Assembly (NCBI GenBank): GCA_902599315.1
Contig: CACKEY010000005.1
Location: forward strand, 1-64,000
DNA length: 64,000 nucleotides
Direction of reading: 5' to 3'
Source of the DNA: an uncultured SAR86 cluster bacterium
Lineage (GTDB): Bacteria > Pseudomonadota > Gammaproteobacteria > Magnimaribacterales > D2472
The position numbers were made by a program, and so were the translations under genes. Below are positions 2,958-39,685 of this stretch, piece after piece; the stretch's first letter is position 1, and the number at the start of each line of letters is the position of its first letter. Below the pieces are notes generated by a model. It ran no database searches. It was not told the DNA's origin and was given only the letters and a program-made list of their open reading frames with translations.

Positions 2958-2994
2958 TTTTCCTCCTTTAGTTGCTGAAAGCCATATCATTTTT

Positions 2995-3020
2995 CCACCT
3001 TGCCAGAGAGGGCAGGTTGG
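2995..3020 (-). promoter_or_regulatory. GC-rich hairpin in leader of hypothetical gene
   Basis: CCACCTTGCC at 2995-3004 and GGCAGGTTGG at 3011-3020 form a 10-bp stem with one mismatch, one G-U and a 6-base loop. This is conspicuous in such AT-rich DNA. It lies 37 bases before the start of the minus-strand hypothetical gene and has no T-tract on that strand, so a leader or mRNA structure is more likely than a terminator. The rest of 2991-3129 shows no gene. Confidence 0.35.
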
Positions 3021-3132
3021 AGAGGAATTTAATCCTGCTCTTGATATCCGTATATTTTACATTTTTTGTCTATAAAAAAGTAGGTATTTTTTAGATGCAT
3101 AATGCTAATATTGAATTAAACAAGGAGAAATG

Positions 3133-14962: not shown

Positions 14963-17941
14963 TTAATTTGTCACAATTCCTTGAATCATCTTTGAAAGGT
15001 TTTCCATTGAGACATCATCTTTTTTAACCAATCCCACAACTCTTTCTTTTAAAAGATCCTCCTGAACTTCGGTTAAATCTTTTCCTGAAAATACTAATAC
15101 TGGAGCTCTTTTGTCTTCATGAACATTTTTAATATAATTATCTAGAAATTCAAACCCATCCATTCTAGGCATTTCTAAATCAAGAATAATCAATGACGGC
15201 TCATCTTTAGTCCTTTCAAGACCTTCTTTACCATCTCTTGCATCAATAGGTCTGTATCCAGCATCCTTTAGAAGTCTTGAAAGCAATTCTCTAACATCTT
15301 TATCATCATCTATCACTAGAACCTTATGATCTTGAGTTTCGTTCCCAAGGACTCTTTTTACGGTATTAATAAAGTGAGTCCTATCAATGGGTTTTGTTAA
15401 GTAATCATTTGCACCAAGTGAAGAAGCAAGATTAGATTGATTTAATTGGCTTATCATAATTACTGGAATACTTTTTAAGTCTTGATCTGTTTTACATTCC
15501 TTAAGTAAAGACCATCCATCTCTTCCTGGCATCAAAACATCAAGCAAAATTAATTTTGGCTTAACTTCACGAATTAACTCCATTCCTTTTTCGCTATTTG
15601 TAGCACCAAGTAAAGTAAGATTAAGCTTTGAAATTGTTCGTTTAATTAGATCATGCATTGCAACATCATCATCTACCAATACAACAAGATTATCTTGATC
15701 ATCCAGATTTATAACATTTGCATCAACCTCATCCTCACTATATTCAGGACATTCTCTTGGAACTGACATCGTAAAAGTAGATCCAACTCCTTCTTCACTA
15801 GTTACGACAACGTCACCACCCATCATCTCTGCAAATTTCTTTGAGATTGGAAGACCTAATCCAGTTCCGCCATAATTTGCCGATGTAGAACGCTCCGCCT
15901 GAGTGTATTCCTCAAAGACTTTAGCAACTCCTTCAGGACTCATGCCTGCACCTGTATCAATTACAGCAAAATCAATAAACTCTTCATCATCAATCATTCT
16001 CGATTTTACATCTAGAGTCACAGTTCCATTTTTTGTAAATTTAAATCCATTACTTAAAAAATTTGTTATACATTGTCTTAGTTTTGTTTCATCTTGAGAC
16101 ATAGATCCCATAGCACCATCAAGATTAATTACAAACCCATTATCATTTTTGGCTGCAAGAGGTTCAGAAACATCTTTAATAGTTTGGATCATATTTTCTA
16201 TTTCAAAACTGGTAACAAATAACTCCATTTTTCCAGCCTCAATTTTTGAAAGATCTAAAATATTATTGATTAAAGATAAAAGATGCGTTCCCGAAGATGT
16301 AATTTTTTTTAAATCAGGTAATAAATCGTCATAGCCTAAATCTTCACAATCCTCATAAAGCATTTCTCCATATCCAAGAATAGCATTCAGGGGAGTCCTT
16401 AATTCGTGACTCATATTTGCAAAGAATTTTGTTTTTTGATCGCTTGCATCTCTAGCTTCATCTCTTGCTGACTCCATTTCACTCGTCCTTGCATCAATCA
16501 AACCATTAACTTCATCTGACATCCTAGAAAAAGCAACTAGCATTAATTCAACGGATGCCTCTTCGCTCGAGTTTCTGTCAGAGCTATCTGCAAGCTCATT
16601 CATTTTTTTGATGTCATTTAAAATAAGTGTTCTTGCGCTTCCATCGAGTTGATCAGCAAGAGCTGTCATTTTTTCGATAATGACTTCATCTCGCTCATGT
16701 CTTCTTTTGGCTTGTTCTTCTCTAATTGATTCCATTTCAATTAGATGAGACTTATAAGTTCCTAATGCAGCAGACAATTGCCCAACCTCATCAGTCTCAG
16801 AAGCAAGAATCCCTTTCCTCACAGGCATCTCTTGTGTGTGATCGCCCTTGGTTAGACCTTCAAGCACTTCAATGGCCTTTGTTATACCACCAAATGTTCT
16901 TGTAGTAATGAAAGCTATTAATGAAATTATGAATATCACAAATGATATTGCAGCAATATATGTAAGATTTAATACATTCGCAGCTCTCAATATATTTTCT
17001 CTTTCGTCCTTAAAGACAAAAAGTTGCGCCTCATCCGCTGACAAAAATGTGCTAAGGGGCAGAAGGGTCACTGAGGTTCCTAATTCTGTATCTTTTTCAG
17101 AATGACGCGAACCATGAATTGCTTTAAATGCTGATGCTTTGTCGGTTAACTTATTAAAATTTTCAATATCAAAAAGATCATCTTCAGTATCTCCAAATTG
17201 CTGATAATAATCATTAAGTGAGATCAGATTCGAATCAGTGCTAATAGCTGTTCTGACTTCAAACTCATCTTCAAATACTTCTAATCCTTTTCTAATATCA
17301 ACACCAAGAGCTATAACAGCCAAAGTTTCTCCTTCAACTTTAATAGGGAAACTTAATGCCTGATTTAAAGTAGATGCTTGATCCTCATTTTTGTCTTTAA
17401 TTTTAACTATTGATTGCCTTGGTCTTGTCGATGCATCTGTAAGAAAGGAATCAAGATAACTAAAAAAATCAGGACGAGCTGCAGGAGAGCAGGGATCAAC
17501 TCCTAATAAATCAAGCGCGCTACCACAATATATTCTTTCTCCTGACGGAAAATAAGCCATAACATAACTTAAATTTCCATAATCTAATTCTTCTTCAAAA
17601 AAAAGTTCAATTAAATATTGGGCATCTCCAATTCTATCAGCGCTAATAGTATCGAGGAGTGGATTGATAAATATATTGCTTGAAGCAACTTCATCTAAAA
17701 AAATTTCTGAATCAGGCTCCCAAAAAGAAGCATTTTCTCCTGTAACTGGTAACCACTTTGACATGACATCAAAAGATTTGTTGTAGGTTTGATACCATGC
17801 AGACTCATACAAGGTAAGCAATGACTCGTTCGATGAATTTTCTTGGATATTTTCTCTATAGCCAAAGGAAAATATAAATATGGCTGCAACAAGCACATTA
17901 CCTATAACCCCAAATAGCAGCAACTGGAGTCTTATTGGCAT
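14963..17941 (-). CDS. Hybrid sensor histidine kinase with two receiver domains
   Basis: A 992-residue inner-membrane kinase. TM1 is at about 7-27, a periplasmic sensor region at about 28-325, TM2 at about 326-346, HAMP at about 347-400, and then a coiled linker. In the HisKA domain H512 sits in SHELRTPLNA. The HATPase has its N-box at N627, G1 DTGAGM (662-667) and G2 GGTGLGL (691-697). REC1 has phospho-acceptor D801 and K850; REC2 has D921 and K973. The periplasmic part has two cysteines (139 and 151) that could pair. It converges on the c-di-GMP/REC operon; the signal is unknown. Confidence 0.92.
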   Translation of the reverse strand: MPIRLQLLLFGVIGNVLVAAIFIFSFGYRENIQENSSNESLLTLYESAWYQTYNKSFDVMSKWLPVTGENASFWEPDSEIFLDEVASSNIFINPLLDTISADRIGDAQYLIELFFEEELDYGNLSYVMAYFPSGERIYCGSALDLLGVDPCSPAARPDFFSYLDSFLTDASTRPRQSIVKIKDKNEDQASTLNQALSFPIKVEGETLAVIALGVDIRKGLEVFEDEFEVRTAISTDSNLISLNDYYQQFGDTEDDLFDIENFNKLTDKASAFKAIHGSRHSEKDTELGTSVTLLPLSTFLSADEAQLFVFKDERENILRAANVLNLTYIAAISFVIFIISLIAFITTRTFGGITKAIEVLEGLTKGDHTQEMPVRKGILASETDEVGQLSAALGTYKSHLIEMESIREEQAKRRHERDEVIIEKMTALADQLDGSARTLILNDIKKMNELADSSDRNSSEEASVELMLVAFSRMSDEVNGLIDARTSEMESARDEARDASDQKTKFFANMSHELRTPLNAILGYGEMLYEDCEDLGYDDLLPDLKKITSSGTHLLSLINNILDLSKIEAGKMELFVTSFEIENMIQTIKDVSEPLAAKNDNGFVINLDGAMGSMSQDETKLRQCITNFLSNGFKFTKNGTVTLDVKSRMIDDEEFIDFAVIDTGAGMSPEGVAKVFEEYTQAERSTSANYGGTGLGLPISKKFAEMMGGDVVVTSEEGVGSTFTMSVPRECPEYSEDEVDANVINLDDQDNLVVLVDDDVAMHDLIKRTISKLNLTLLGATNSEKGMELIREVKPKLILLDVLMPGRDGWSLLKECKTDQDLKSIPVIMISQLNQSNLASSLGANDYLTKPIDRTHFINTVKRVLGNETQDHKVLVIDDDKDVRELLSRLLKDAGYRPIDARDGKEGLERTKDEPSLIILDLEMPRMDGFEFLDNYIKNVHEDKRAPVLVFSGKDLTEVQEDLLKERVVGLVKKDDVSMENLSKMIQGIVTN

Positions 17942-25503: not shown

Positions 25504-26574
25504 ATGCCAAAACCACAAGAAAGAAATTTAGAGGAAACAAAGATTACATTTACAAGATGGCTTGAATCTAAATTAACCGATGTAAATAATCTAAATGTTG
25601 AGTTATTAGGTGGCCCGGAGAATACAGGATTTTCAAATGAAACATTAAGCTTTAATGTGGCATATGAATTAGGAGATAAACAAATTAAAACTGGCATGGT
25701 TCTCAGGTTTTATCCAGAAGGATTTTTTGTTTTTCCTGATTACGATATTCATAAACAATATCTCATTATGCAAAAGTTATCCGATCATGACATCAAAGTC
25801 CCAAATGTTCTTTGGTATGAATCAAGCGATGATATTTTTGGCACATCATTTTATGTGATGGAAATGGCTAAAGGTGATGCGCCTTCTGATAATCCTCCAT
25901 TCCATCAAGAAGGCTGGGTTGCAGATTCATCAGAAGAGGTTAGAGAGAATATTTGGTGGGGATGGGTTGAGCAAATGGCCAAAATTCATCAAGTAGACAT
26001 TACAGGTGGTGATTTTGAATTTCTTAATAGACCAAAGCTCGCAGAGAATTATCTTGATCAAGAATTAAATTATTATTTTAATTTTCATGAATGGGCTATG
26101 GAAGGCGAAGCTCATCCAGTTGCTGACAAAGCTCGAGAGTGGTTAAAAGCAAATAAACCCTCTCCTAATCAAGCTTCGATACTGTGGGGAGATTGCAGGT
26201 GTGCAAATATTATGTATACCCCTGATGGAGACGTGTCTGCAGTTTTAGATTGGGAAATGGCTGCTCTAGGCGATCCTTGTATTGATCTTGCTTGGGGGAT
26301 AGCTATAGATGATTGTAATTCAAAAGGAGTTCATGTTGATCGCTTAAGTGGTTTTCCTGGCCCGGTTGCAACGATAGCTAAATGGGAGGCTTTAACAGGT
26401 TTTAGTGCAAATAATTTTGATTATTATTATATTTTGGCTCTATACAAATTCACCGTGATAATGGTTAAAGTCGTCCGTAAATTGGAGCACTATGAAATGA
26501 TGCCACTAGGTATGAACGCGCACATAAACAATCACGTAACACCAATGCTTGAAGCAAAACTAAAGGAACTCTAA
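25504..26574 (+). CDS. APH-like phosphotransferase (ACAD10-type)
   Basis: A 356-residue kinase-fold protein. The catalytic loop reads WGDCRCANIMY (aminoglycoside phosphotransferase style, H replaced by W-G-D-x-R-x-x-N) and the metal motif is LDWEMAALGDPCIDLAW. Bacterial members near acyl-CoA enzymes phosphorylate hydroxyacyl-CoA intermediates, as in ACAD10/11 systems, so a catabolic rather than an antibiotic role is likely. Its stop overlaps the next ATG (aldehyde dehydrogenase) by one base. Confidence 0.85.
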   Translation: MPKPQERNLEETKITFTRWLESKLTDVNNLNVELLGGPENTGFSNETLSFNVAYELGDKQIKTGMVLRFYPEGFFVFPDYDIHKQYLIMQKLSDHDIKVPNVLWYESSDDIFGTSFYVMEMAKGDAPSDNPPFHQEGWVADSSEEVRENIWWGWVEQMAKIHQVDITGGDFEFLNRPKLAENYLDQELNYYFNFHEWAMEGEAHPVADKAREWLKANKPSPNQASILWGDCRCANIMYTPDGDVSAVLDWEMAALGDPCIDLAWGIAIDDCNSKGVHVDRLSGFPGPVATIAKWEALTGFSANNFDYYYILALYKFTVIMVKVVRKLEHYEMMPLGMNAHINNHVTPMLEAKLKEL

Positions 26575-28100
26575 TGGCTATTTTTTCTATTTCAAAATCT
26601 GAAACTGGGCAAAAATTATTAACCTTACAAAGTCCAGTTGACCTATCTCATATCGATACCTATGAATGTACATCCTCTGAAGATATTTCAAAAATAATGA
26701 CGCAGGCAAAAATTGCACAAAGTGAATGGAAAAAAACATCACTTAAAGAGCGAGTTGAATTGATGCATAAGGTTGCTGATATTGTGATTCAGCAACAAGA
26801 CAGAATCATGGAAGTAGTTATGAGGGAAACAGGCAAACCTCAACAGGAGGCTATGGCAATGGAAGTGTTTTCTGCCGTTGATTCATTGGTTTTTTATGCA
26901 AAAAGAGCTAAAAAATGGTTATCTGACAAGAAAATTAAGATGCATGGGCCTATGCAGTTCTTAAAGAAAACTATTGTAACCTACAAGCCAAGAGGGGTAG
27001 TTGCTGTTATTACTCCTTGGAATGGACCATTCATCTTATCAATTAACCCTGTGATTCAGGCTGTTTTATGCGGTAATAGTGTTGTTGTAAAACCTTCTGA
27101 AGTAACGCCCATGTCAGGAGCTTTGGTTGAGGAGATATTTGCATTGGCAGAAGCTCCAGTGCATTTAGTTCAAACTGTAATTGGAGATGGCGAAACAGGC
27201 GCAGAACTAATTGATCATGGCCCTGATAAAGTGTCTTTTACTGGCAGTGTTGCTACAGGAAAGAAAATAGCTACCAAATGTGGGGAGATGCTAATTCCTT
27301 ATAGCCTGGAATTGGGTGGCAAAGATGCAATGATTGTTTGCTCTGATGCTGATGTCAAGGATGCAGCCAGTGGTGCTGTTGTAGGTTCTTGTATGAATGC
27401 TGGTCAATATTGTTGTGGCACAGAAAGAATTTATGTAATGGATGATATTTACGATGAGTTTGTAGGCGAAGTTGTTTCTATTACGAAGACACTAATTCAA
27501 TCAAATGATTGTAAGGGTGATGTCGGCCCAACTTTTTGGGATAAACAAATAGAAATAATTGAGGATCATGTAAAAGATGCAATAGATAAGGGAGCGAAAG
27601 TTCTGGTTGGAGGAAAGCGTAATCCAAATTTTGAAGGGCTATATTTTGAACCAACGGTTTTGACCGAGGTAACTCATGAAATGAAGATAATGAAGGATGA
27701 AACTTTTGGACCTATCATTTCAATAATGAAAGTTAGCTCTGAAGAAGAAGCTTTAATGCTAGCCAATCAATCTCATTATGGATTGAATGGGAATGTTTGG
27801 ACCAAAGATTTAATTAAAGGAAAAAAATTAGCTCAATCTATTGAAACAGGAGCATGCTCTGTAAACGATATGGCAATGAGCTATGGCGTTAATGAAGTTC
27901 CTTTTGGAGGTGTTAAAGAAAGTGGCCTAGGAGTAGTTAATGGAGAGGAGGGCTTACTAGCGTATGCTCATGCCATGCCAATTATCATTGGAAAGAAATC
28001 AGCATCTGCATATCCTTATACAGATAAATCTTTTGAGCAACTAAAAGGCGCACTCAAGATTTTCTGGGGAAACAGATTAGTTAGAAAATTATTTGGCTAA
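26574..28100 (+). CDS. NAD(P)-dependent aldehyde dehydrogenase
   Basis: A 508-residue member of the ALDH superfamily, class not resolved. The substrate/cofactor motif TPWNGPF holds the conserved Asn, LELGGKDAMIV the general-base Glu, and NAGQYCCG the nucleophile Cys (first Cys after GQY). The glycine motif FTGSVATGKK binds the cofactor. The C-terminal stretch after about 465 is longer than usual and contains an amphipathic K-R end. It oxidises an aldehyde to the acid. It is translationally coupled to the APH-like kinase gene and converges with the next SDR gene (4-base gap). Confidence 0.93.
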   Translation: MAIFSISKSETGQKLLTLQSPVDLSHIDTYECTSSEDISKIMTQAKIAQSEWKKTSLKERVELMHKVADIVIQQQDRIMEVVMRETGKPQQEAMAMEVFSAVDSLVFYAKRAKKWLSDKKIKMHGPMQFLKKTIVTYKPRGVVAVITPWNGPFILSINPVIQAVLCGNSVVVKPSEVTPMSGALVEEIFALAEAPVHLVQTVIGDGETGAELIDHGPDKVSFTGSVATGKKIATKCGEMLIPYSLELGGKDAMIVCSDADVKDAASGAVVGSCMNAGQYCCGTERIYVMDDIYDEFVGEVVSITKTLIQSNDCKGDVGPTFWDKQIEIIEDHVKDAIDKGAKVLVGGKRNPNFEGLYFEPTVLTEVTHEMKIMKDETFGPIISIMKVSSEEEALMLANQSHYGLNGNVWTKDLIKGKKLAQSIETGACSVNDMAMSYGVNEVPFGGVKESGLGVVNGEEGLLAYAHAMPIIIGKKSASAYPYTDKSFEQLKGALKIFWGNRLVRKLFG

Positions 28101-28104
28101 TAAT

Positions 28105-28869
28105 TTATTTCGGTTTTGCAACTTCAAGGTAGGTTGGCTTTTCGCCGCCTCCATGAACATCTAAAGATGCTCCTGTTACCCATTCTGAAAGATTTGATGC
28201 AAAGAACAAGCAGGCATTTGCAACATCAGATGGTTTACCCATTCTTTTCATTGGAATGGTTTTAGCAATTTTATTCATTTCTTTTTTGCTGCCGTAATGA
28301 ACCAATGAATTTTCAGTCTCAATATAGCCAACGACTATACTATTTACTTTTATTTTTGGAGCCCATTCAACTGCTAAAGTTTTTGTTAGATTTACAAGTC
28401 CTCCCTTTGCTGCGCCATAAGCAGCACTTCCAGGGGTTGGTCTATTAGCTGTAACGCTTGAAATATTTATTATGTTAGAGACAGTTTTTTGTTTCATCAT
28501 AATTTTTGCAAATCTTTGGCTCACATTTAATGGAGCAGTCAAATTTAAATCAATTATGGCTTCATGAAATCTGTTTGACGCTGAAAGGGCTTTTACTAAG
28601 GGAGCACCTCCAGCATTATTAATTAATACATCGACTGATTTTGTCTTGGTTTTAATATTTTTGACTGCAGCGTCTATAGAATTTATATCTCTGATATCAC
28701 ATTCTACAAAAATAGCTTTATTTCCTTTAGCCATTATCAATTTTTTAGGTTTTTGTCTCGCAAGAATAAAAACCTCTGCATCATGCCTTAAAAAGGTTTT
28801 AGTTATTTCAGCACCAATACCTCTGGTTCCCCCAGTCACTACTATTGATTTATTTTTAAGATTTATCAT
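28105..28869 (-). CDS. SDR family oxidoreductase
   Basis: A 254-residue short-chain dehydrogenase: TGGTRGIG (about 12-19), NNAG at about 88, catalytic Ser in INISSVTA, YGAAK, and the TGASLDVHGG end. The frame is open 40 codons further (to 28989), but that extension is AT-rich, unlike an SDR, and would cover the divergent npdG promoter, so the ATG at 28869 is chosen. Substrate unknown; a 3-oxoacyl or hydroxysteroid type is plausible. It is divergent from the F420 operon. Confidence 0.88.
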   Translation of the reverse strand: MINLKNKSIVVTGGTRGIGAEITKTFLRHDAEVFILARQKPKKLIMAKGNKAIFVECDIRDINSIDAAVKNIKTKTKSVDVLINNAGGAPLVKALSASNRFHEAIIDLNLTAPLNVSQRFAKIMMKQKTVSNIINISSVTANRPTPGSAAYGAAKGGLVNLTKTLAVEWAPKIKVNSIVVGYIETENSLVHYGSKKEMNKIAKTIPMKRMGKPSDVANACLFFASNLSEWVTGASLDVHGGGEKPTYLEVAKPK

Positions 28870-28968
28870 TCTTAACTTATTTAATTTAACGTAATTATAA
28901 ATTATGAACTGATAAGTAAAATTAACAAATTTTTCTTTTTTATCAGCAATGACTTGTAAATTAGTTTG

Positions 28969-28974
28969 TATAAT
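28969..28974 (+). promoter_or_regulatory. Candidate -10 box of the F420 operon
   Basis: A perfect TATAAT lies 29 bases before the npdG start, with AGGAGA at 28992-28997 as a good ribosome site. The -35 is not clear (TGACTT is too close). Region 28870-29003 holds nothing else. Confidence 0.4.
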
Positions 28975-29003
28975 AGTTTTCAAAAACAATTAGGAGAATT
29001 TCA

Positions 29004-29636
29004 ATGAAAATAGCTATTCTTGGCGGAACTGGCTCACTTGGTAAGGGTCTGGCTTCAAGATGGATAAAAGCTGGTCACGATGTATTAATAGGAAGCCGTG
29101 ACCTAGAAAAAGCTCAAGAATCTGCAAAGGGGCTAAATTTATTTAATTCTTCGGGAATGTTAAACGAAGAAGCTGCAAAATCGTGTGAGCTCGCATGTTT
29201 AACCGTTCCATTTGCCCACCAAGAAAATACTCTAAAAAGTATAGGTAACGCATTAGATAATAAAATAATGATAGATGCTACAGTTCCTTTAATGCCTCCA
29301 AAGGTAATGCGTGTTCAATTACCACAGGAGGGCTCTGCGGCTTTAAAAGCTCAATCGATTCTTGGTGAAAAAACAATTGTAGTTTCTGCATTTCAAAATA
29401 TTTCTGCTGAATTATTGCAAACGGATGCTGACATTGAATGTGATGTACTAGTAGCCGGTGATTTTATTGATGCTCGAAGCACCGTAATATCTCTTGCAGA
29501 GGATGCTGGTTTAACCGCATGGCATGCTGGACCATTATGTAATTCTGCAGCTGCAGAGGCATTAACCTCAATTTTAATTGCAATAAATAAGAAACATTCG
29601 CTTGCACACTCCGGTATAAAAATTACCGGACATTAA
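29004..29636 (+). CDS. npdG: NADPH-dependent F420 reductase
   Basis: A 210-residue Rossmann protein of the Fno/NpdG family. It begins with ILGGTGSLGKGLASRW and GSRDLEKA (nucleotide binding, Arg typical for NADPH), has a middle LTVPFAHQ, and ends with the family's HAGPL-N-S-A-A-A-E-A-L-T-S and the K-H-S-x-x-H-[SA]-GI-x-ITG. It moves hydride between NADPH and F420, making F420H2 available. It is the first gene of the F420 operon, with the cofE reading frame opening directly after it, so cofactor making and reduction are co-expressed. Confidence 0.92.
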   Translation: MKIAILGGTGSLGKGLASRWIKAGHDVLIGSRDLEKAQESAKGLNLFNSSGMLNEEAAKSCELACLTVPFAHQENTLKSIGNALDNKIMIDATVPLMPPKVMRVQLPQEGSAALKAQSILGEKTIVVSAFQNISAELLQTDADIECDVLVAGDFIDARSTVISLAEDAGLTAWHAGPLCNSAAAEALTSILIAINKKHSLAHSGIKITGH

Positions 29637-29650
29637 ACACTGGATAAATT

Positions 29651-30412
29651 ATTAAATCTATAAATCTCAAAGCGCTAGAGACTATCCCGCTGATTCAGCC
29701 TGGAGATAATTTATCTCAATTGATCATAGACTCTCTTAAAAAAGAATCAATTAAAATTAATGATGGCGATGTCTTTGCAGTGGCTCAAAAAATTATTTCA
29801 AAATCAGAAGACAGATACTTAGATATATCTGATATTTCCCCCTCAAAAGAAGCTATAGAATTATCTAAAAAACTTGCAAAAGAACCAAATTTTATTCAGG
29901 CAATATTAAACGAATCAAAAAAAGTTGTCAGATATAGGATGGGAGTATTAATTGTAGAACACAAGCTTGGTTTTATTCATGCCAATGCAGGTATTGATAG
30001 ATCAAATATTGATCAAGAAAAAGACATTGTATTATTGTTGCCGGAAGATCCGGATCTATCTGCTAAAAAACTATCTGAATCTTTATCCAAGCACTTGAAA
30101 AAAAATATATCAGTAATTATTACAGATACCATGGGAAGACCATTTAGAAATGGAATAGTTGGCTTTACGATCGGAAGTCATAATATTGAATGCCTTATTG
30201 ACGAAAGAGGTAATAAAGATCTTTACGGCAATACGCTTAAATTTACTCAAATTGCAATTGCTGATGAATTAGCCGCTGCATCATCTTTGTTGATGGGTCA
30301 AGCCGCACAAAAAAAACCAGTTGTGCTAATTAGCGGTTATAAATTTATTGAAAGTAATGTCTCAAACGCAAAAACATTAATTCGCTCAGAGGAAGAAGAT
30401 TTATTTAGATGA
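29651..30412 (+). CDS. cofE: F420-0:gamma-glutamyl ligase, probable ATT start
   Basis: CofE adds glutamates to F420-0 using GTP. This copy (253 residues) is a stand-alone CofE with no FbiB nitroreductase half. Family blocks are clear: IPLIQPGDNL near the N-terminus, DGDVFAVAQKIISKSE, ITDTMGRPFRNGIVGFTIG and LYGNTLKFTQIAIADELA. The first usual start (TTG 29720) would delete IPLIQPGD. Upstream, in frame after a stop at 29645, only ATT codons (29648 and 29651) can serve, with GGA six bases before 29651. So an ATT start or a sequence error is implied. It overlaps cofD by 4 bases. Confidence 0.88.
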   Translation: MKSINLKALETIPLIQPGDNLSQLIIDSLKKESIKINDGDVFAVAQKIISKSEDRYLDISDISPSKEAIELSKKLAKEPNFIQAILNESKKVVRYRMGVLIVEHKLGFIHANAGIDRSNIDQEKDIVLLLPEDPDLSAKKLSESLSKHLKKNISVIITDTMGRPFRNGIVGFTIGSHNIECLIDERGNKDLYGNTLKFTQIAIADELAAASSLLMGQAAQKKPVVLISGYKFIESNVSNAKTLIRSEEEDLFR

Positions 30413-31338
30413 AAAATTATCTTTTACTTTGTGGAGGAGTTGGCGGAGCCAAGCTTGCATTAGGCTTTAAAAACATATTACCTGAAGAAAATTTAGCTAT
30501 TGTTGTAAATACTGGAGATGATTTTACGCATCTTAATCTAAAGATTTGTCCAGACCTAGATACCGTTATGTATACCCTTGCTGGTGAGTCAGATGTTTCA
30601 AAAGGTTGGGGTAGAAAAAATGAAACATGGAATATGCTTTCAGCCTTAGCTGATATGGATGGTGAAACTTGGTTTCAACTTGGCGACAAAGATTTAGCAA
30701 CTCATATTCAAAGGACAAGATTAATAAAATCAGGCAATTCTCTTTCAGAGGCAACAATGAAACTATGCCATTCTTTTAATTTGCCTCAATTTATTTTTCC
30801 AATGAGTGATGAGCCGGTTGAAACATATATCCAGACTGAAAATAGGCTTTTATCTTTTCAAGAATATTTTGTAAAACTTAAATGCGAACCCCCGGTTACT
30901 GATTTTGTTTTTAAAGGTCTTGATAAAGCTAAATTTAATAAAGATATAGACCTATTGTCATTCGATGAAATTATCATTTGTCCATCAAATCCATATGTAA
31001 GTATCAATCCCATGTTGCAACTTTCAAGTCTCCAAGACCATCTTAGAAAATTTCCAGAAAAAGTTACTGTAATAAGTCCAATTGTAAATTCAAAATCTCT
31101 CAAAGGACCAACAGCAAAAATGATGTTAGAACTTGGTCATGAGATAAGCGTGAATACAATCGGGGAATTTTATAAAAATTACTCTCATAGAATTTTTATC
31201 GATGCTGCTGATAAAGAAAATTCTGACTTTCTCACAGCAGTAGGTTACGAAGTTCATTGTAGTAATTTAGTTATGAATAACACACTTTCTAAAAATAAAC
31301 TCGCAGATAACATAATAAAAGTTCTTGAAGGAAGATAA
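30409..31338 (+). CDS. cofD: 2-phospho-L-lactate transferase (F420 pathway)
   Basis: A 309-residue CofD. N-terminal GGVGGAK (9-15) and VNTGDDF...CPDLDTVMYTLAG are diagnostic. It joins the phospholactyl-type group from the CofC product to FO, giving F420-0 or dehydro-F420-0. Which C3 acid is used (phosphoenolpyruvate, 2-phospholactate or 3-phosphoglycerate) cannot be told here. It overlaps cofE by 4 bases and abuts cofC, so it is tightly coupled. Confidence 0.95.
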   Translation: MKNYLLLCGGVGGAKLALGFKNILPEENLAIVVNTGDDFTHLNLKICPDLDTVMYTLAGESDVSKGWGRKNETWNMLSALADMDGETWFQLGDKDLATHIQRTRLIKSGNSLSEATMKLCHSFNLPQFIFPMSDEPVETYIQTENRLLSFQEYFVKLKCEPPVTDFVFKGLDKAKFNKDIDLLSFDEIIICPSNPYVSINPMLQLSSLQDHLRKFPEKVTVISPIVNSKSLKGPTAKMMLELGHEISVNTIGEFYKNYSHRIFIDAADKENSDFLTAVGYEVHCSNLVMNNTLSKNKLADNIIKVLEGR

Positions 31339-31914
31339 ATGGCAATTTCTGCATTTATACCAATAAAAAATTTTGAGATTTCTAAAGAAAGACTATCTAA
31401 TATTCTTAGCTCATCTGAAAGATCTAACCTTGCCGAGAGAATGGCTCGTCATACTGTAAAGACTTTAGTTGACTCAGATATATGCGAGTCTATTTTCATT
31501 GTCACTAATGATAAGGAATTGATGTTTGATGAAGCTAAATCTTTTTATACAAGCTCACCTTTAAATAATGCCCTTAACGAAGCTATTAGATCTCACAATA
31601 AAAATGAAATTATTTTAATCATGCATGCTGACTTACCAAGAATTAATGAATTAGACCTTCATTTACTAAAGAATAAGTTCTCAAATCAAAAAGTAAGCAT
31701 TGTTTCAGATCTTCTTAAAAACGGAACAAATTGCTTAATGTATGAAGCATCACAAAATTTTGAGCTAAAATTTGGATTAAATAGCTATAATCTTTTTACA
31801 GAAGAATTTAAGAAAAATAACATTAGCTTTCAAGACATAAACTTAAGCACGCTGCAAGATGATCTTGACTCAGAGGAAGATTACTTCAAACTTGTGAAAC
31901 ATATTAATGGTTAA
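31339..31914 (+). CDS. cofC: Phospholactate/PEP guanylyltransferase (F420 pathway)
   Basis: A 191-residue nucleotidyltransferase: IPIKNFEISKERLSNILSS at the start, MHADLPRI for the metal site, GTNCLMY, and LQDDLDSEEDY at the C-terminus, all typical of CofC/FbiD. It activates the C3 phospho-acid with GTP for CofD. It begins directly at the end of cofD and overlaps fbiC by 8 bases. Confidence 0.93.
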   Translation: MAISAFIPIKNFEISKERLSNILSSSERSNLAERMARHTVKTLVDSDICESIFIVTNDKELMFDEAKSFYTSSPLNNALNEAIRSHNKNEIILIMHADLPRINELDLHLLKNKFSNQKVSIVSDLLKNGTNCLMYEASQNFELKFGLNSYNLFTEEFKKNNISFQDINLSTLQDDLDSEEDYFKLVKHING

Positions 31915-34333
31915 TAAATTGAAAATTCAAGAACAATCTAACTTATCTCTTAAAAAGATAATTCAACATGAAAATATTAAATTTTCTGAATTAAAAGCTT
32001 TGAGTAATGTTTGTTTGTCAGAATCACTGATTGAGGCTGCATTTAATAAAAAAAAATATTATTTTCAAGATACCCTTACTTATTCACCTAAAGTCTTTAT
32101 ACCATTAACATTTTTGTGTAGAGATGTTTGTCATTACTGCACATTTGCTAAAACACCAAAAAAAGTAGAATCTCCATACCTATCAATTCAAGAAGTCGTT
32201 TCTATTGCAAAAGAGGGTGAGAGTAGGGGTTGTTATGAGGCATTATTCACTTTAGGAGATAAGCCAGAGCTGAGATATAAAGCTGCACGCGATTGGTTAA
32301 AAATTAATGGTTTTAAAACAACAAATGAATACCTGGGTGCTTGTGCAGATGCTGTTTTAAATGAAACTTCCCTTATTCCTCATTTGAATTCAGGGTGTCT
32401 TACATCAGAAGAAATTTCTAAATTAAAGCCACTAAGTGGCTCAATGGGATTAATGGTTGAATCACTGTCTTCAAAGCTCACTGAAAAAGGCCAGCCTCAT
32501 TATGGATCTCCTGACAAAGAACCAGAATTTAGAATGAAGACACTAATAGAAGCCGGTAAACAAAAAATTCCATTTACAACGGGAATTTTAATAGGAATTG
32601 GTGAGACACGTTTAGATAGACTCGAATCTCTTTATGAAATTTCTAAACTGCACAAGCAATACAATCATATTCAAGAAGTCATTGTTCAAAACTTCAAACC
32701 GAAGCCAAATACATTAATGGCAAATTCTCCTGAGCCTTCATTCGATGAGTTAATTTGGACAATTGCTATGGCAAGGTTAATTTTACCTGGTGATATTAGT
32801 GTGCAGGTTCCACCAAATCTAAACGTTGAACATATTAAAAAATTAACCGTATCTGGTATCAATGATTTTGGAGGAATTTCTCCAGTAACTAAGGACTATG
32901 TAAATCCAGAGGCTCCCTGGCCAGAAATAGAAAAGCTTGGTAAATTAGCTTTACATTCTAATCAGTCACTGGTTGCCCGAACAACACTTTATCCTAAGTA
33001 TTTTGCAAATCTTAATGAGTTCTCATCACCCTCGATAGCCTCTAAATTACTTAATATTACTGATGCAAGATCATTAATTAGATCTGATAATTGGAAATCT
33101 GGAGTAAGTTATCATATTCCACTGTATTCAAAGTATACCTGTAATACTAACATTCAAAAGACCATTCAAGAGGTTGAATTAAATCCTTCTATAGATAATT
33201 TACAAAGGTTATTAGAGTCAAATGATAAAGATTTTCAATATATCGTTGATTATGCAAATAACAAGAAATTTGAAACTTTTGGGAAGGATGTAAGCTTTGT
33301 GGTAAATAGAAATATCAACTATACAAATATATGCTCTTACAAGTGTAACTTTTGTGCTTTTTCAAAAGGAAGAGGGCACGATGATCTAAGGGGTCAGCCG
33401 TACAATATTTCTCATGCTGAGATAGTAAGAAGAACAAAAGAAGCTATTGATAGAGGCGCAACCGAAGTATGCTTACAAGGCGGTATTCATCCAAAATATA
33501 CCGGCCGAACTTATATTGAAATAGTTAAATCTATAAGATCAGTTTCTAGTTCTGTCCATATCCATGCATTTTCTCCGCTTGAAATAGATCATGGCAGAAA
33601 GACATTAAATATTTCTTCTAAAGAATTTCTACAAGAGTTAAAAAATGTTGGCCTAAATTCTCTTCCAGGAACTGCAGCTGAAATTTTGCATGATGATATT
33701 AGGTCAAAAATATGTCCAGATAAACTGACTACATCTCAATGGATTGAAATTATCAAGACTGCTCATAACGTTGGATTACCCTCAACATCTACAATGATGT
33801 TTGGTCATGTTGAGAATATGTCTCACGTTGCTCATCATCTGCTTAAATTAAATAACCTTCAATTAGAAACCAATGGAATAACAGAGTTTGTTCCTCTGCC
33901 TTTTGTGGCTGATGAAGCCCCTATTTATAGAAAGGGTCTTGCAAGACCCGGACCTACCTTTAAAGAATCCATTTTAGTCCATTCTGTTGCAAGAATTCTT
34001 TTCAATGACAAAATCAATAACATTCAGGGCTCTTGGGTAAAAATGGGCCTTCCAGGATTAAAGTTTCTTTTAACTGCAGGAATTAATGACATTGGAGGAG
34101 TGCTCATGAATGAATCAATAACAAGATCTGCTGGTGCCGCTTTTGGTCAAGAATTATTTTTAGAGGATGTTCTTAAAATTACTGATGAGCTAGACCTTAA
34201 TTTAATCCAGCGCAACACTTTATATCATTCCATGCCTAATAGAATTAAAGATTTGATAGAACTTCAATCAATTCCTTTGCTTCCAATAAATAATGATTAT
34301 CATAAACCTAAAAAAATAATTAATTCACTATGA
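31907..34333 (+). CDS. fbiC: FO synthase, fused CofG-CofH
   Basis: An 808-residue bifunctional radical-SAM enzyme that makes the deazaflavin FO from tyrosine and 5-amino-6-ribitylaminouracil. The N-terminal CofG half has the cluster C71/C75/C78 (CRDVCHYC); the C-terminal CofH half has C476/C480/C483 (CSYKCNFC), followed by AFSKGRGHDD. The fusion is the actinobacterial FbiC layout, though slightly shorter. Both halves look intact. It overlaps cofC by 8 bases and the DUF1295 gene by 4, inside one operon. Confidence 0.96.
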   Translation: MVNKLKIQEQSNLSLKKIIQHENIKFSELKALSNVCLSESLIEAAFNKKKYYFQDTLTYSPKVFIPLTFLCRDVCHYCTFAKTPKKVESPYLSIQEVVSIAKEGESRGCYEALFTLGDKPELRYKAARDWLKINGFKTTNEYLGACADAVLNETSLIPHLNSGCLTSEEISKLKPLSGSMGLMVESLSSKLTEKGQPHYGSPDKEPEFRMKTLIEAGKQKIPFTTGILIGIGETRLDRLESLYEISKLHKQYNHIQEVIVQNFKPKPNTLMANSPEPSFDELIWTIAMARLILPGDISVQVPPNLNVEHIKKLTVSGINDFGGISPVTKDYVNPEAPWPEIEKLGKLALHSNQSLVARTTLYPKYFANLNEFSSPSIASKLLNITDARSLIRSDNWKSGVSYHIPLYSKYTCNTNIQKTIQEVELNPSIDNLQRLLESNDKDFQYIVDYANNKKFETFGKDVSFVVNRNINYTNICSYKCNFCAFSKGRGHDDLRGQPYNISHAEIVRRTKEAIDRGATEVCLQGGIHPKYTGRTYIEIVKSIRSVSSSVHIHAFSPLEIDHGRKTLNISSKEFLQELKNVGLNSLPGTAAEILHDDIRSKICPDKLTTSQWIEIIKTAHNVGLPSTSTMMFGHVENMSHVAHHLLKLNNLQLETNGITEFVPLPFVADEAPIYRKGLARPGPTFKESILVHSVARILFNDKINNIQGSWVKMGLPGLKFLLTAGINDIGGVLMNESITRSAGAAFGQELFLEDVLKITDELDLNLIQRNTLYHSMPNRIKDLIELQSIPLLPINNDYHKPKKIINSL

Positions 34334-35208
34334 AGACAAAACTATTACATCTGTCAGTGATAACGCTAGGATACGTTGCTTGTATATACTCAATGCAACT
34401 TACTTGGGAACTTTCATCCAATTTTTCATTACCTCTTAAAGTATTTATATGTCATGTTGAAGCTACGGTCTTTATTTATTTTTTGAGCGTCATATTTAAT
34501 AACTCAAGTTGGTATGATGCTTTTTGGTCAGTTATTCCTGTTGTACTTGCTGTAATATGCTGGTCTGATCTTGCGGCTGCTGGAAATACTCAGAGAGCAT
34601 TGTTAATGCACGCCTGTTTACTTTTTTGGGCTATTCGTCTTACTTATAATTGGATGAGATCATGGGATGGATTTTCACATGAAGATTGGCGTTATGTAAT
34701 GATGAAAGCAAAAACTAAAAATAAATTTGAATATTTTATTGTTGATTTTGGGTCTATCCATCTCATACCAACAATATGCGTCTATTTAGCACTGCTTCCA
34801 ATGATATTTGCACTTGCTTATCCAGGCAATGGCTTAAATATGCTTGATATTGTTGCTGCCTTACTATCTGTAATTGCAGTAATAATACAAATTATTTCTG
34901 ATCAACAAATGTATAACTTCAGAAATAACATGACCGAGTCAAAAACTATGCAGACTGGCTTATGGTTTTATTCAAGACACCCTAATTATTTCGGTGAAAT
35001 ACTTTTTTGGTTTAGTTTGTTTGTGTTTGCGATAGCTTCAAGTATGTCGTTTGCATGGCTTTTGATCGGCTGTATTGTGATGTATGCTCTTATAGCAATT
35101 GCATCTGTGTCAATGATGGATAAAAGATCATTAAATAGACGAGCAGATTTTAAAGATTATATGGAATCTACTCCTGCGATCTTTATTAACTTTTTTAAAA
35201 AAAGCTAA
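34330..35208 (+). CDS. DUF1295 steroid 5-alpha-reductase-like membrane protein
   Basis: A 292-residue protein with about seven hydrophobic segments. The C-terminal domain has the DUF1295 / steroid 5-alpha reductase / ICMT-like signature: AIRLTYNW, WDGFSHEDWRY, then TGLWFYSRHPNYFGEILFW (about 216-234), where RHPNY binds the cofactor. Related proteins reduce enone double bonds in steroids or lipids; the exact role is unknown. Its start overlaps the fbiC stop by 4 bases, so it is made together with F420 enzymes, and the M20 gene follows in 3 bases. Confidence 0.87.
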   Translation: MKTKLLHLSVITLGYVACIYSMQLTWELSSNFSLPLKVFICHVEATVFIYFLSVIFNNSSWYDAFWSVIPVVLAVICWSDLAAAGNTQRALLMHACLLFWAIRLTYNWMRSWDGFSHEDWRYVMMKAKTKNKFEYFIVDFGSIHLIPTICVYLALLPMIFALAYPGNGLNMLDIVAALLSVIAVIIQIISDQQMYNFRNNMTESKTMQTGLWFYSRHPNYFGEILFWFSLFVFAIASSMSFAWLLIGCIVMYALIAIASVSMMDKRSLNRRADFKDYMESTPAIFINFFKKS

Positions 35209-35211
35209 CCC

Positions 35212-36510
35212 ATGAAAAAACTATTTTTATATTCAATCTTTTTGATGACCTGTGAAACAATATCTGCAGAAGATTTGAGAAATCAATTAGCTCTTGATAT
35301 TCCTGGGGTTATGACAAAAGTGACTGATTGGAGACATCATTTTCATGAATTCCCTGAACTTTCAAATAGAGAATATAAAACTCAGGAATCTATTGCTGAG
35401 GCATTAATTGAAATGGGATTAGAGCCAAATCTTAACTATGGAATTACTGGAGTCACTGCTTTTATAAGAGGTCAAAATGCTGGACCATTAATTGCACTAA
35501 GAGCTGATATAGATGGATTGCCTGTTACAGAAAAACTTAATTTACCATTTTCGTCAAAAGTTAAAACAACCTATCAAGGCAATGAAGTCGGTGTAATGCA
35601 TGCTTGTGGTCATGATGCTCACATTGCAGTTTTACTTGGTGTTGCTAGTTTTCTATCTCAAAATACTGACAAATTAAATGGCGATATTTTATTAATTTTT
35701 CAACCAGCAGAAGAGGGTGCGCCAGAGGGAGAGGAAGGTGGCGCAGAATTGATGTTAAAGCAAGGCCTTTTTGATGCTGAAAAACCCGATGCTATTTTTG
35801 GAATGCATGTAGCTAATTTTAAAAATGGTCAAATTTGGACCAAACCTGGTCCAATTATGGCTTCAGCAGAAGCATTTAGAATTACAGTCCAAGGCAGACA
35901 AACACACGGTTCGCGCCCATGGAGTGGAGTTGATCCAATTATTGCTGCGTCTGATATTGCTACAACATTGCAAACAATTGTGAGCAGAAGATTAAATCTT
36001 TTGGATAGCCAGGCTGTGGTAACTGTAGGAATTATGAAAGCCGGGACAAGAAATAACATCATACCCTCGACTGCAATGTTGGAGGGAACTATTAGAACAT
36101 TCAAAGACTCTTATGCAGATCAAATCAGAGATGAAATCAAGCTTATAGCTGAGAAAGTAGCAGAGGCTCATCATGCTTCTGCTGAGGTTGAGTTTAAGGT
36201 TTATGGGGGATATCCAGTTACAGTCAATGATGAAGATCTTGTAAGAAATTTCTCACCATCTTTGATGGAAGCTGCAAATGGAGATTTTTTTGAGGCAAGA
36301 GTTCCAAGAACAGGAGCAGAAGATTTCTCTTTTTATGCACAACAAGTGCCTGGATTATTTTTTTTCTTAGGCGTTAATGCTCCCGGTGTTGAAGATAGTC
36401 CTACTAATCACTCTCCATTTTTTTATGTTGATGATTCTGCCCTAACTAACGGCGTGAAAGCATTTGTAAATTTAGTGGAAGACTTTTCTGTTAAGTTTAA
36501 TTCTAATTAA
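35212..36510 (+). CDS. Exported M20D amidohydrolase (hippurate hydrolase-like)
   Basis: A 432-residue peptidase of the M20D group with an N-terminal signal peptide (about 1-19, ending SAE). Metal and catalytic residues are seen in HACGHDAH, PAEEG, GMHV and TNHSPFF. It hydrolyses an N-acyl amino acid or similar amide in the periplasm. It is last on the plus strand of the F420 operon, but whether it belongs to the same function is unclear. Its stop overlaps a small minus-strand frame by 8 bases. Confidence 0.9.
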   Translation: MKKLFLYSIFLMTCETISAEDLRNQLALDIPGVMTKVTDWRHHFHEFPELSNREYKTQESIAEALIEMGLEPNLNYGITGVTAFIRGQNAGPLIALRADIDGLPVTEKLNLPFSSKVKTTYQGNEVGVMHACGHDAHIAVLLGVASFLSQNTDKLNGDILLIFQPAEEGAPEGEEGGAELMLKQGLFDAEKPDAIFGMHVANFKNGQIWTKPGPIMASAEAFRITVQGRQTHGSRPWSGVDPIIAASDIATTLQTIVSRRLNLLDSQAVVTVGIMKAGTRNNIIPSTAMLEGTIRTFKDSYADQIRDEIKLIAEKVAEAHHASAEVEFKVYGGYPVTVNDEDLVRNFSPSLMEAANGDFFEARVPRTGAEDFSFYAQQVPGLFFFLGVNAPGVEDSPTNHSPFFYVDDSALTNGVKAFVNLVEDFSVKFNSN

Positions 36511-37975: not shown

Positions 37976-39685
37976 ATGAAATGGGATTATGAATTTGATG
38001 TTGTTGTAGTTGGCTCTGGAAATGGAGCCCTAACTTCAGCCATTTGCAGTCATGATGGTGGCGCAAAAACACTTGTGATTGAAAAAAGCAATCAATACGG
38101 AGGCACATCTGCAACTTCTGGAGGCGGAGTTTGGATTCCAAATAATAGATATGCCAAAGCAGAGAATGTTGATGATTCAGATCAAGATGCACGAGACTAT
38201 ATCAATAGCGTCTCTCCTGAGGGCATGATTAAAGATGAGCTTATTGAAACTTATATTTCAGAAGGACCAAAAATGATTGATTATCTTCATGAAAATTCTC
38301 AAGTAAAATATAGAAACTTATCTCATTATCCAGATTACTTTCCTGACAATCCTGGAGGAAAGGAGGGCAACAGATCAATGGAGCCTGAACCCATCAATGG
38401 AACAATATTAGGAACTGATTTAGGTAAGCTAAGGGAGCAGCATCCACAAACAGCTTTTACCATGGGACCAATTAATATGAATTTTACTCAGGTAGAGGGT
38501 CAATTACTTTTAGGAGCTTTGCCTGGTTGGAAAACACTTTTTGCCAAGCTATTTACGAAATATATCCTTGATTTACCCATGAGACTGAAATGGGGTTGGA
38601 AAGATAGAAGGCTGACAATGGGCAATGCAGGAATAGCAAGATTAGTATTATCTTTAAGAGATAGAAATGTAGATATCTGGACTGAGACTTCAATGACAGA
38701 TTTAATAGATGAAAATGGTTCAGTGATTGGCATCAAAGCTTCAAGAAATAATTCCGAAATTAATATCAAAGCCACAAAGGGGGTAATTTTAGCTTCTGGT
38801 GGATTTGAAAAAGATCAAGAGCTCAGGGATAAGTATTTACCTCAACCTTCTAAAACTGAATGGAGTGCTGCAAATACATACAACACTGGCGATGCATTGA
38901 AAGCTGCTTTAAGACTTGGAGCAGATACTCATCAAATGGATACAGGATGGTGGTCAACGGTCATGAAGGTCCCTGGTCAAGATAAAGGTTGGTTATCAAT
39001 GGTTGATAAATCAATGCCGGGTAATTTTACAGTCAATAAGAATGGCGAAAGATTTTCAAATGAATCTCAAAATTATGTAAGTTTTGTAAATGACATGTTT
39101 GAAAAATATGCTGAAGGAAATCCATGTGCGCCATGCTACATGATTTTTGATAGCACCTTTAGAAAGAATCGTCCATGCGGTCCTCTTCTTCAGAGCTCTA
39201 TGCAACCTGACTCTGCTGTCCCAAAAGAATGGTGGACCCCATCATTTCTTTCTAAAGGTGAAACTTTAGAAGAGCTGGCTGAAGTTGCTGGAATTGACAT
39301 AGAGGGTCTTTTATCAACGCAAGCTAAAGTAAATGAATATGCCAAATCTGGAAAAGATCTAGATCTTCAAAGAGGCGACACAGCATATGATAGATATTAC
39401 GGTGATCCATCTGTCACACCAAATCCATGTCTAGCACCATTAGAAAAGGGTCCTTTTTATTGTATGGTTCTATATCCAGGAGAGATGGGTACTGCTGGAG
39501 GCTTAGTTATTGACACTCACGCCAGAGTCCTCAACAAAGAAGGAAAGGTTATACCTGGACTTTATGCCTGTGGCAATTGCTCTACAGCCTTGCTGCCAAC
39601 TTATCCTGGTCCAGGATCAACTCTTGGCCCTGCTATGACATTTGGATATTTAGCTGCAAAAGATATAACTGGTTCAAATTTTTAA
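37976..39685 (+). CDS. 3-ketosteroid delta-1-dehydrogenase-like flavoprotein
   Basis: A 569-residue FAD enzyme of the KstD / fumarate-reductase flavoprotein superfamily. The FAD motif GSGNGA is at 13-18, YGGTSATSGGGVWIPNN is the family's second motif, and the C-terminal TYPGPGSTLGPAMTFGYLAA holds the Tyr543...Gly547 pair that matches the Tyr/Gly catalytic pair of KstD. A further candidate Tyr lies in SQNYVSF. It probably makes a 1,2 (or similar) double bond in a 3-keto-steroid-like ring. It starts a plus-strand run with an SDR and two NTF2-like proteins. Confidence 0.9.
   Translation: MKWDYEFDVVVVGSGNGALTSAICSHDGGAKTLVIEKSNQYGGTSATSGGGVWIPNNRYAKAENVDDSDQDARDYINSVSPEGMIKDELIETYISEGPKMIDYLHENSQVKYRNLSHYPDYFPDNPGGKEGNRSMEPEPINGTILGTDLGKLREQHPQTAFTMGPINMNFTQVEGQLLLGALPGWKTLFAKLFTKYILDLPMRLKWGWKDRRLTMGNAGIARLVLSLRDRNVDIWTETSMTDLIDENGSVIGIKASRNNSEINIKATKGVILASGGFEKDQELRDKYLPQPSKTEWSAANTYNTGDALKAALRLGADTHQMDTGWWSTVMKVPGQDKGWLSMVDKSMPGNFTVNKNGERFSNESQNYVSFVNDMFEKYAEGNPCAPCYMIFDSTFRKNRPCGPLLQSSMQPDSAVPKEWWTPSFLSKGETLEELAEVAGIDIEGLLSTQAKVNEYAKSGKDLDLQRGDTAYDRYYGDPSVTPNPCLAPLEKGPFYCMVLYPGEMGTAGGLVIDTHARVLNKEGKVIPGLYACGNCSTALLPTYPGPGSTLGPAMTFGYLAAKDITGSNF

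Follow-up and report, generated by a model that had tools for sequence, protein, structure and literature searches.

Can a SAR86 bacterium make and use coenzyme F420? SAR86 bacteria are very common in the ocean, and an F420 operon among them would make F420 chemistry in the surface ocean testable. The question is raised by a run of genes in a 64,000-nucleotide stretch of DNA (the window, from here on) from an uncultured member of the SAR86 cluster. The window opens contig CACKEY010000005.1 of a 1.44-Mb genome (assembly GCA_902599315.1), and a first-pass annotation had read its positions 29004–34333 as an apparently complete F420 operon in a gammaproteobacterial setting. The explanation we prefer, and to which we give as a whole a probability of about 0.85, is a working F420 operon of one SAR86 lineage that has long been inherited vertically within its family.

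The operon would work as follows. FbiC would make FO, CofC would activate 2-phospho-L-lactate or phosphoenolpyruvate (PEP), probably not 3-phosphoglycerate (3-PG), and CofD would join the activated moiety to FO to give F420-0. CofE would then add gamma-linked glutamates, and NpdG would exchange hydride between NADPH and F420. The reduced cofactor, F420H2, would serve a small set of luciferase-like oxidoreductases (LLMs, PF00296) whose genes lie in other parts of the genome, most likely for breaking down steroids or similar rings; these would probably also be the substrates of the operon's membrane protein of the DUF1295 family. Translation of CofE itself would start at a rare non-AUG codon, here AUU, probably by re-initiation after npdG, and non-AUG initiation should keep the level of the enzyme low.

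The Operon and Its Limits

Gene identities were judged by the curated cut-offs of the NCBIfam equivalog models, and Pfam agrees for the families that it covers. All five F420 genes pass such cut-offs and lie on the plus strand in the order that the first-pass annotation gave them. The first operon gene, here as in other SAR86 loci, is npdG (fno; 29004..29636), for NADPH-dependent F420 reductase (TIGR01915, 194.2 bits against a cut-off of 149.8). Next is cofE (29651..30412), for F420-0:gamma-glutamyl ligase, a protein of 253 amino acids if started at the ATT at 29651 (TIGR01916, 269.2 bits, cut-off 180.65; a second model, NF009809, gives 267.7 bits, slightly below its cut-off of 274). It is followed by cofD (30409..31338), for 2-phospho-L-lactate transferase, the step from FO to F420-0 (TIGR01819, 276.6 bits, cut-off 257.45), and cofC (31339..31914), for phospholactate/PEP guanylyltransferase (TIGR03552, 115.7 bits, cut-off 105). 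Last comes fbiC (31907..34333), a fused FO synthase with the CofG and CofH radical S-adenosylmethionine (SAM) halves in one open reading frame (ORF) of 808 amino acids, the translation of which has two CxxxCxxC motifs. The CofH half scores 493.8 bits on TIGR03551 (cut-off 374.1) and the CofG half 486.0 on TIGR03550 (cut-off 213.35); the full-length CofGH model PRK09234 gives 961.8 bits, below its cut-off of 1018. Judged by gene content, the five genes are a genuine and complete bacterial F420 biosynthesis operon.

The tight packing that had been claimed for them holds at three junctions, where cofE and cofD overlap by 4 bases, cofD and cofC abut, and cofC and fbiC overlap by 8. No canonical codon opens cofE at the point where its homology begins. 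Nor does the operon end at 34333. A gene for a DUF1295, steroid-dehydrogenase-like membrane protein (34330..35208, plus strand; PF06966, 152 bits, and PF02544, 30.8 bits, both above cut-off) overlaps fbiC by 4 bases and so carries the operon further. Three bases beyond it, on the same strand, lies a gene for an M20 family amidohydrolase/peptidase (35212..36510; TIGR01891, 327.8 bits, cut-off 153.75), which is likely the last gene of the operon.

For comparison we used a set of 100 related genomes, the window's own included, assigned to families (f1 and so on) and genera (g1 and so on) as labelled here. The DUF1295 gene adjoins fbiC in f1 and in f2 loci (in f2, L007/L008), and the M20 gene is syntenic downstream of it in f1. 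Indeed, the whole block from an APH-fold phosphotransferase gene at 25504 to the end of the M20 gene at 36510 is syntenic in the f1 loci of sufficient length, over protein identities that range from 99% to about 35%; in one locus, L048, a short-chain dehydrogenase/reductase (SDR) gene is not at its expected place. Because the block is syntenic across f1 loci, the arrangement of the operon is not due to chance. Its G+C content, 31–34%, resembles that of its neighbours. A scan for promoters and terminators gave 22 promoter-like sites against a shuffle mean of 34.5, and 8 terminator-like sites against 4.0, with the single plus-strand terminator-like site located within fbiC. As for the DUF1295 protein, its profile match to the steroid 5-alpha-reductase 7bw1 is weak (E 0.005), and a fold search with its predicted structure (predicted local distance difference test score 88.1) found nothing at E<=0.001, the value for steroid 5-alpha-reductase being E 0.4. 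This gene, the abnormal start of cofE and the steroid-catabolic setting were all overlooked by the first-pass annotation.

An Ordinary Layout in an Apparently New Host

The combination of a fused FbiC with a stand-alone CofE had been described as a mixed layout. It is the usual arrangement in the proteobacterial loci examined: the two occur side by side in the loci retrieved from alpha- and gammaproteobacteria, and CofE stands alone in every one of the 32 non-SAR86 rows whose end could be read (231–258 codons from the aligned start). The FbiC fusion is attributed to Proteobacteria too in the relevant part of a review (PMC8498797). The SAR86 layout is the ordinary proteobacterial one. Like the proteobacterial F420 operons (L062, L067, L174 and L177; Paracoccus, Oligotropha, Mycetohabitans), it has npdG, stand-alone cofE, cofD, cofC and fused fbiC, often in the same order, which the four numbered loci have in full. 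Unlike them, it has DUF1295 downstream, plus M20 in f1, and AUU, AUC or AUA at the start of cofE in f1. With the actinobacterial fbiA/fbiB/fbiC/fbiD system it shares the fused FbiC and likely users in the LLM families TIGR03617 and TIGR03619, which are named after mycobacterial proteins; it differs from that system in having no FbiB nitroreductase half, and the test for an actinobacterial Fbi-type protein was negative, the 253-amino acid CofE showing the F420_ligase domain only.

Which kind of F420 would be made can be read from CofC. According to the passages of PMC8764529 that concern it, Ser162 is diagnostic of CofC enzymes that use 3-PG. All 36 aligned rows, the window's included, have Gly at that position of the FGxxS motif, in a column identified from the G163–S166 spacing that those passages give rather than from an alignment that carries the Mycetohabitans protein across it. 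The 3PG-F420 type was rejected on this Gly, and in this respect SAR86 is unlike Mycetohabitans. From the Gly, 2-phospholactate or PEP is the expected substrate; were it PEP, a dehydro-F420 reductase would be needed.

In the literature covered, chiefly open-access, no paper on F420 in SAR86 was found; in the relevant parts of PMC8067304, PMC9088280 and PMC6282201, F420 concerns hydrogenases or TM7, not SAR86. Within this partial coverage, it is the host group that is new for an F420 operon, the layout being ordinary.

Distribution and Origin

The gammaproteobacterial setting is borne out, the loci nearest to this one (up to 98% identical over FbiC) being SAR86 cluster records. Of the 100 genomes, 30 have CofH at E<=1e-80 (29 above the family cut-off) and 31 have CofD at E<=1e-10. 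Counting as F420-positive any genome with CofH or CofD, the positive genera are g1, g8 and g10 in family f1 and g11 and g17 in f2; neither gene was found in the sampled members of f3 and f4, of g2–g7 and g9 in f1, or of g14, g18 and g20 in f2. In the class at large F420 is sporadic, CofH being present at E<=1e-80 in 15 of 369 genomes, our own included.

How would such a distribution have come about? The simplest reading is a single old acquisition by SAR86, followed by losses. In an FbiC tree of 50 rows, the SAR86 rows of f1 and f2 lie together on one side of a branch with support of 100/99. A quick tree of 69 rows, from which 19 near-duplicate or long-branch rows were removed to give the 50, separates SAR86 from the rest with a Shimodaira–Hasegawa-like approximate likelihood ratio (SH-aLRT) of 94, and in quick trees SAR86 is again one group for CofE (SH-aLRT 93), CofD (96) and NpdG (97). 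The first-pass annotation had proposed a phylogeny of all five proteins; it was run for these four, and each tree makes SAR86 one group. The divergent SDR gene, the gene order and the adjacency of fbiC and DUF1295 are common to f1 and f2. A match to rpoB was recovered from 28 of the 30 genomes searched, and in the rpoB tree g1, g8 and g10, the F420-positive genera of f1, are a single clade (100/99). The suggestion that the acquisition was not recent is upheld.

The rival that survives best is a separate transfer of F420 genes into each carrying lineage, the f1 clade and f2, in place of one early acquisition and losses. It draws on the patchiness just described, with whole families and genera negative in the samples, and on the rpoB tree, which needs at least three changes of F420 state. 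Against it stand the four trees in which the SAR86 rows are one group, and the SDR gene, gene order and fbiC–DUF1295 neighbours that f1 and f2 share; we consider it rather unlikely. The block may also have been transferred between f1 and f2.

A transfer from actinobacteria was rejected on the FbiC trees. Four Actinomycetota rows (L053, L080, L083 and L087) form a group that lies deep in the non-SAR86 part of the trees, and L094, the fifth, is placed with Novosphingobium; these five rows are the actinobacterial reference in trees that include no classical actinobacteria such as Mycobacterium.

A Probable Start Codon That Is Not AUG

Where does cofE begin? Its frame opens after a TAA at 29645 and reads ATT ATT AAA; the first in-frame ATG, GTG or TTG is the TTG at 29720, 23 codons inside the homology. 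Translation probably initiates at a non-AUG codon, and we predict this to be the ATT at 29651–29653, 14 bases beyond the end of npdG, with a weak Shine–Dalgarno-like GGA before it (the two together at 29642..29653, plus strand). The codon at this site is non-canonical in all 27 distinct f1 sequences (in g1, 12 ATT and 9 ATC; in g8, 4 ATT; in g10, 2 ATA), and it is ATG in L114, the sole f2 sequence among the 28 distinct 5′ ends, from which L040, L115 and L120 were excluded as cut by contig ends. It stands exactly 16 codons upstream of a conserved PG in g1, L139 and L114; in g8 (one codon nearer the PG) and in L138 (three further) the placement was of our choosing. Partial Shine–Dalgarno-like stretches (AAGAGA, GGAG, GGA) precede it. 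Ten of 27 sequences compared, L114 among the 27, have no ATG, GTG or TTG at all, whatever the frame, from the npdG stop to the PG.

Other genes of the operon look quite ordinary in this respect. Within a range that opens 15 codons ahead of the aligned start and closes 12 codons past it, a canonical start is present for npdG in 22 of 22 loci, for cofD in 22 of 22 and for cofC in 14 of 14, and over the same range and loci for fbiC in 22 of 23 and for DUF1295 in 23 of 23; outside SAR86, 30 of 32 cofE genes have one in the range examined. The N-terminus of CofE is under coding constraint: in 20 g1 sequences the ratio of nonsynonymous to synonymous polymorphism (pN/pS) over the 15 codons after the site is 0.21, against 0.18 for the rest of the gene and 1.2 and 9.0 in the other two frames. 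Mapped onto a cofE tree that excludes the start region, the codon undergoes six changes altogether; those within f1 are among T, C and A, and a single change between ATG and non-ATG is needed. With so few independent changes, the third-base argument for a start codon is weak alone.

The non-AUG start could be illusory, with translation beginning at a downstream canonical codon (TTG 29720, or an internal ATG in g8) and the upstream homology a relic. The mechanical ORF list does open cofE at TTG 29720, an in-frame ATG occurs within a P-M-I-x-P stretch in the g8 loci L046, L047, L048 and L093, and in-frame TTG codons lie inside cofE in a few more loci. However, TTG 29720 is replaced by TTA in two close relatives, L033 and L034, the downstream candidates differ in place from locus to locus, and the coding constraint on the 15 codons past the site is similar to that on the remainder of cofE and is seen in the gene's own frame only. 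Moreover, the family profile and the solved CofE proteins 2g9i and 2phn align through the N-terminal stretch (the latter two from residue 9 of 29648–30409). We find a downstream start improbable. In the lineage of the window, a frameshift fusion of npdG and cofE was rejected: a TAA in the frame of cofE, at 29645, follows the npdG stop and precedes the proposed start.

A conserved non-AUG start of cofE appears to be a new and unusual feature of the SAR86 F420 operon. The infC gene of E. coli, which encodes initiation factor 3 (IF3) and regulates itself, starts at AUU. In SAR86 cofE, as in infC, a conserved protein-coding gene has an AUU-type initiation codon that is itself conserved; unlike infC, cofE has no known tie to IF3. 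It is a guess that selection has favoured low or regulated initiation at the codon, with the odds somewhat on the other side, and retention of the codon as a throttle is speculative. If true, a clade-wide non-AUG start in a metabolic gene would offer a rare natural case for the study of start-codon discrimination. In the infC gene of the window's own genome (TIGR00168; L143 2444–2452), the single genome viewed, the first canonical codon is a TTG at 2450, adequate by profile, and an in-frame ATC lies two codons earlier, nearer an AAGG.

Likely Users and a Probable Steroid Setting

What would F420 be for? At least two LLM copies are present in all 33 F420-positive genomes, against 4 of the 67 negative ones. 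Three of these four, G001 and G005 (g1) and G056 (g8), are incomplete genomes (71–81%) of positive genera; the fourth, G099 (g20, 86%), may be a true exception. A single LLM copy is present in eight further negative genomes. In the window's own genome, five of the six LLMs pass the cut-offs of F420-dependent subfamilies (TIGR03617 twice, TIGR03619 three times), and the co-occurrence singles out enzymes for testing. The sixth is flanked by a 4-hydroxy-2-oxovalerate aldolase (TIGR03217, 587.8 bits) and a Rieske protein (L149 5–3926, contig C1); after the Rieske ORF comes, as a separate ORF, a KshA C-terminal domain (193.7 bits), and an acetaldehyde dehydrogenase lies in the same run.

The window has probable steroid genes of its own. 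A flavoprotein like 3-ketosteroid Delta1-dehydrogenase (KstD) is encoded at 37976..39685 on the plus strand; the NCBIfam models that it matches best are those of 3-oxosteroid 1-dehydrogenases (E 3e-160, 534.3 bits, below the equivalog cut-off of 788), and the gene is syntenic in g1 and g8 loci and was not found in the L043 stretch. A cytochrome P450 gene (4113–5465, minus strand) has as its best PDB match CYP125, of the sterol C26-oxygenase family (E 3.7e-81). The relevant parts of PMC4810484 and PMC11582366 list SAR86 as a steroid degrader with kshA/kstD-type genes, which the latter reports there only from several genomes of the Suzuki (D2472) family; the genome of the window has genes of this type too, and its KshA-type protein hints, if weakly, that f1 is the Suzuki (D2472) family. 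The term F420 occurs 0 times in the main texts of the two papers. From neighbourhood and co-occurrence, F420 most likely feeds the catabolism of steroids or similar rings. F420-dependent reduction of recalcitrant ring compounds, if true, would add a cofactor that we did not find considered for SAR86.

Upstream of the operon, the APH-fold phosphotransferase gene (25504..26574, plus strand; PF01636), syntenic in f1 loci, is followed by an aldehyde dehydrogenase gene (26574..28100, plus strand) and by the SDR oxidoreductase gene (28105..28989, minus strand; NF005893, 336.3 bits, cut-off 255). The SDR gene is divergent from npdG and holds the same place in most SAR86 loci, that of L114 in f2 included. 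Close orthologs of the aldehyde dehydrogenase (E<=1e-120) occur in 25 of 60 genomes, our own included, solely in the F420-positive genera g1, g8, g10 and g11, which makes the enzyme a candidate partner of the F420 system; a search for empty sites anchored on it gave none, its close orthologs being confined to F420-positive genera.

That the pathway mainly supplies FO as the light-harvesting chromophore of a DNA photolyase, with the F420 genes secondary, is most improbable and was rejected: FO is the antenna of some photolyases and our genome has two photolyase-family genes, but the one tested scores far better with the E. coli-type PRK10674 (469.6 bits, below the cut-off of 506) than with the 8-hydroxydeazaflavin (8-HDF) type (328.8 bits, cut-off 884.6), the second, scanned as a 270-amino acid piece, matched no family, and the genes that lead from FO to F420 are retained even where fbiC is gone.

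Several observations weigh against a working operon with these users and this start. The window's own genome is 89.8% complete. The correlation of F420 with LLMs rests on few independent events, at least three changes on the rpoB tree; LLMs are able to use flavin mononucleotide too; and the sixth LLM of our genome falls below its family cut-off. No flavin/deazaflavin oxidoreductase (FDOR) was found in our genome, where the PF01243 match is PdxH-like and the PF04075 search matched no control either. No dehydro-F420 reductase could be singled out, nitroreductases being present in 91 of the 100 relatives regardless of F420. As to cofE, 7 of 26 SAR86 rows do have a canonical codon in the range examined (the ATG of L114 and six TTG well before or inside), and 2 of the 32 genes from outside SAR86 lack one as well.

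Relatives Apparently Without fbiC

Two F420-positive relatives keep other F420 genes and seem to have lost FO synthase, which, like the cofE start, appears to be new. In G014 (g1, 78% complete; L239), npdG, cofE, cofD and cofC are followed by 56 bases and then by DUF1295 and M20, fbiC being missing from its place (15183–15240), and the assembly has no CofH beyond a stray match at E 7e-4. In G075 (g17, 93% complete; L243), the end of cofE, cofD and cofC lie on a contig that continues without fbiC, and CofH was not found in the assembly. They have 8 and 10 LLMs, respectively. G093, the sister of G075, has fbiC at that place across two overlapping frames (L115 2650–2704), a split that may be a sequencing or assembly error rather than a true frameshift. 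The G014 and G075 assemblies are incomplete, and their missing parts could hide a relocated copy of fbiC.

If the loss is real, these lineages need external FO, and they are possible candidates for FO scavengers, or auxotrophs; exchange of FO between plankton would then be testable. A larger scheme, in which AUU, AUC or AUA at the start of cofE is a selected throttle (through IF3-type discrimination or coupling to npdG), retained across the divergence of a family, and FO is a traded good of the surface ocean, scavenged by SAR86 bacteria that lack fbiC but have many F420-dependent oxidoreductases, is less likely than not, and we put it forward tentatively.

The window also has a SAM-I/IV riboswitch aptamer (2958–3052, minus strand; 74.1 bits, gathering score 41.1), which overlaps an ORF at 2598–2990.

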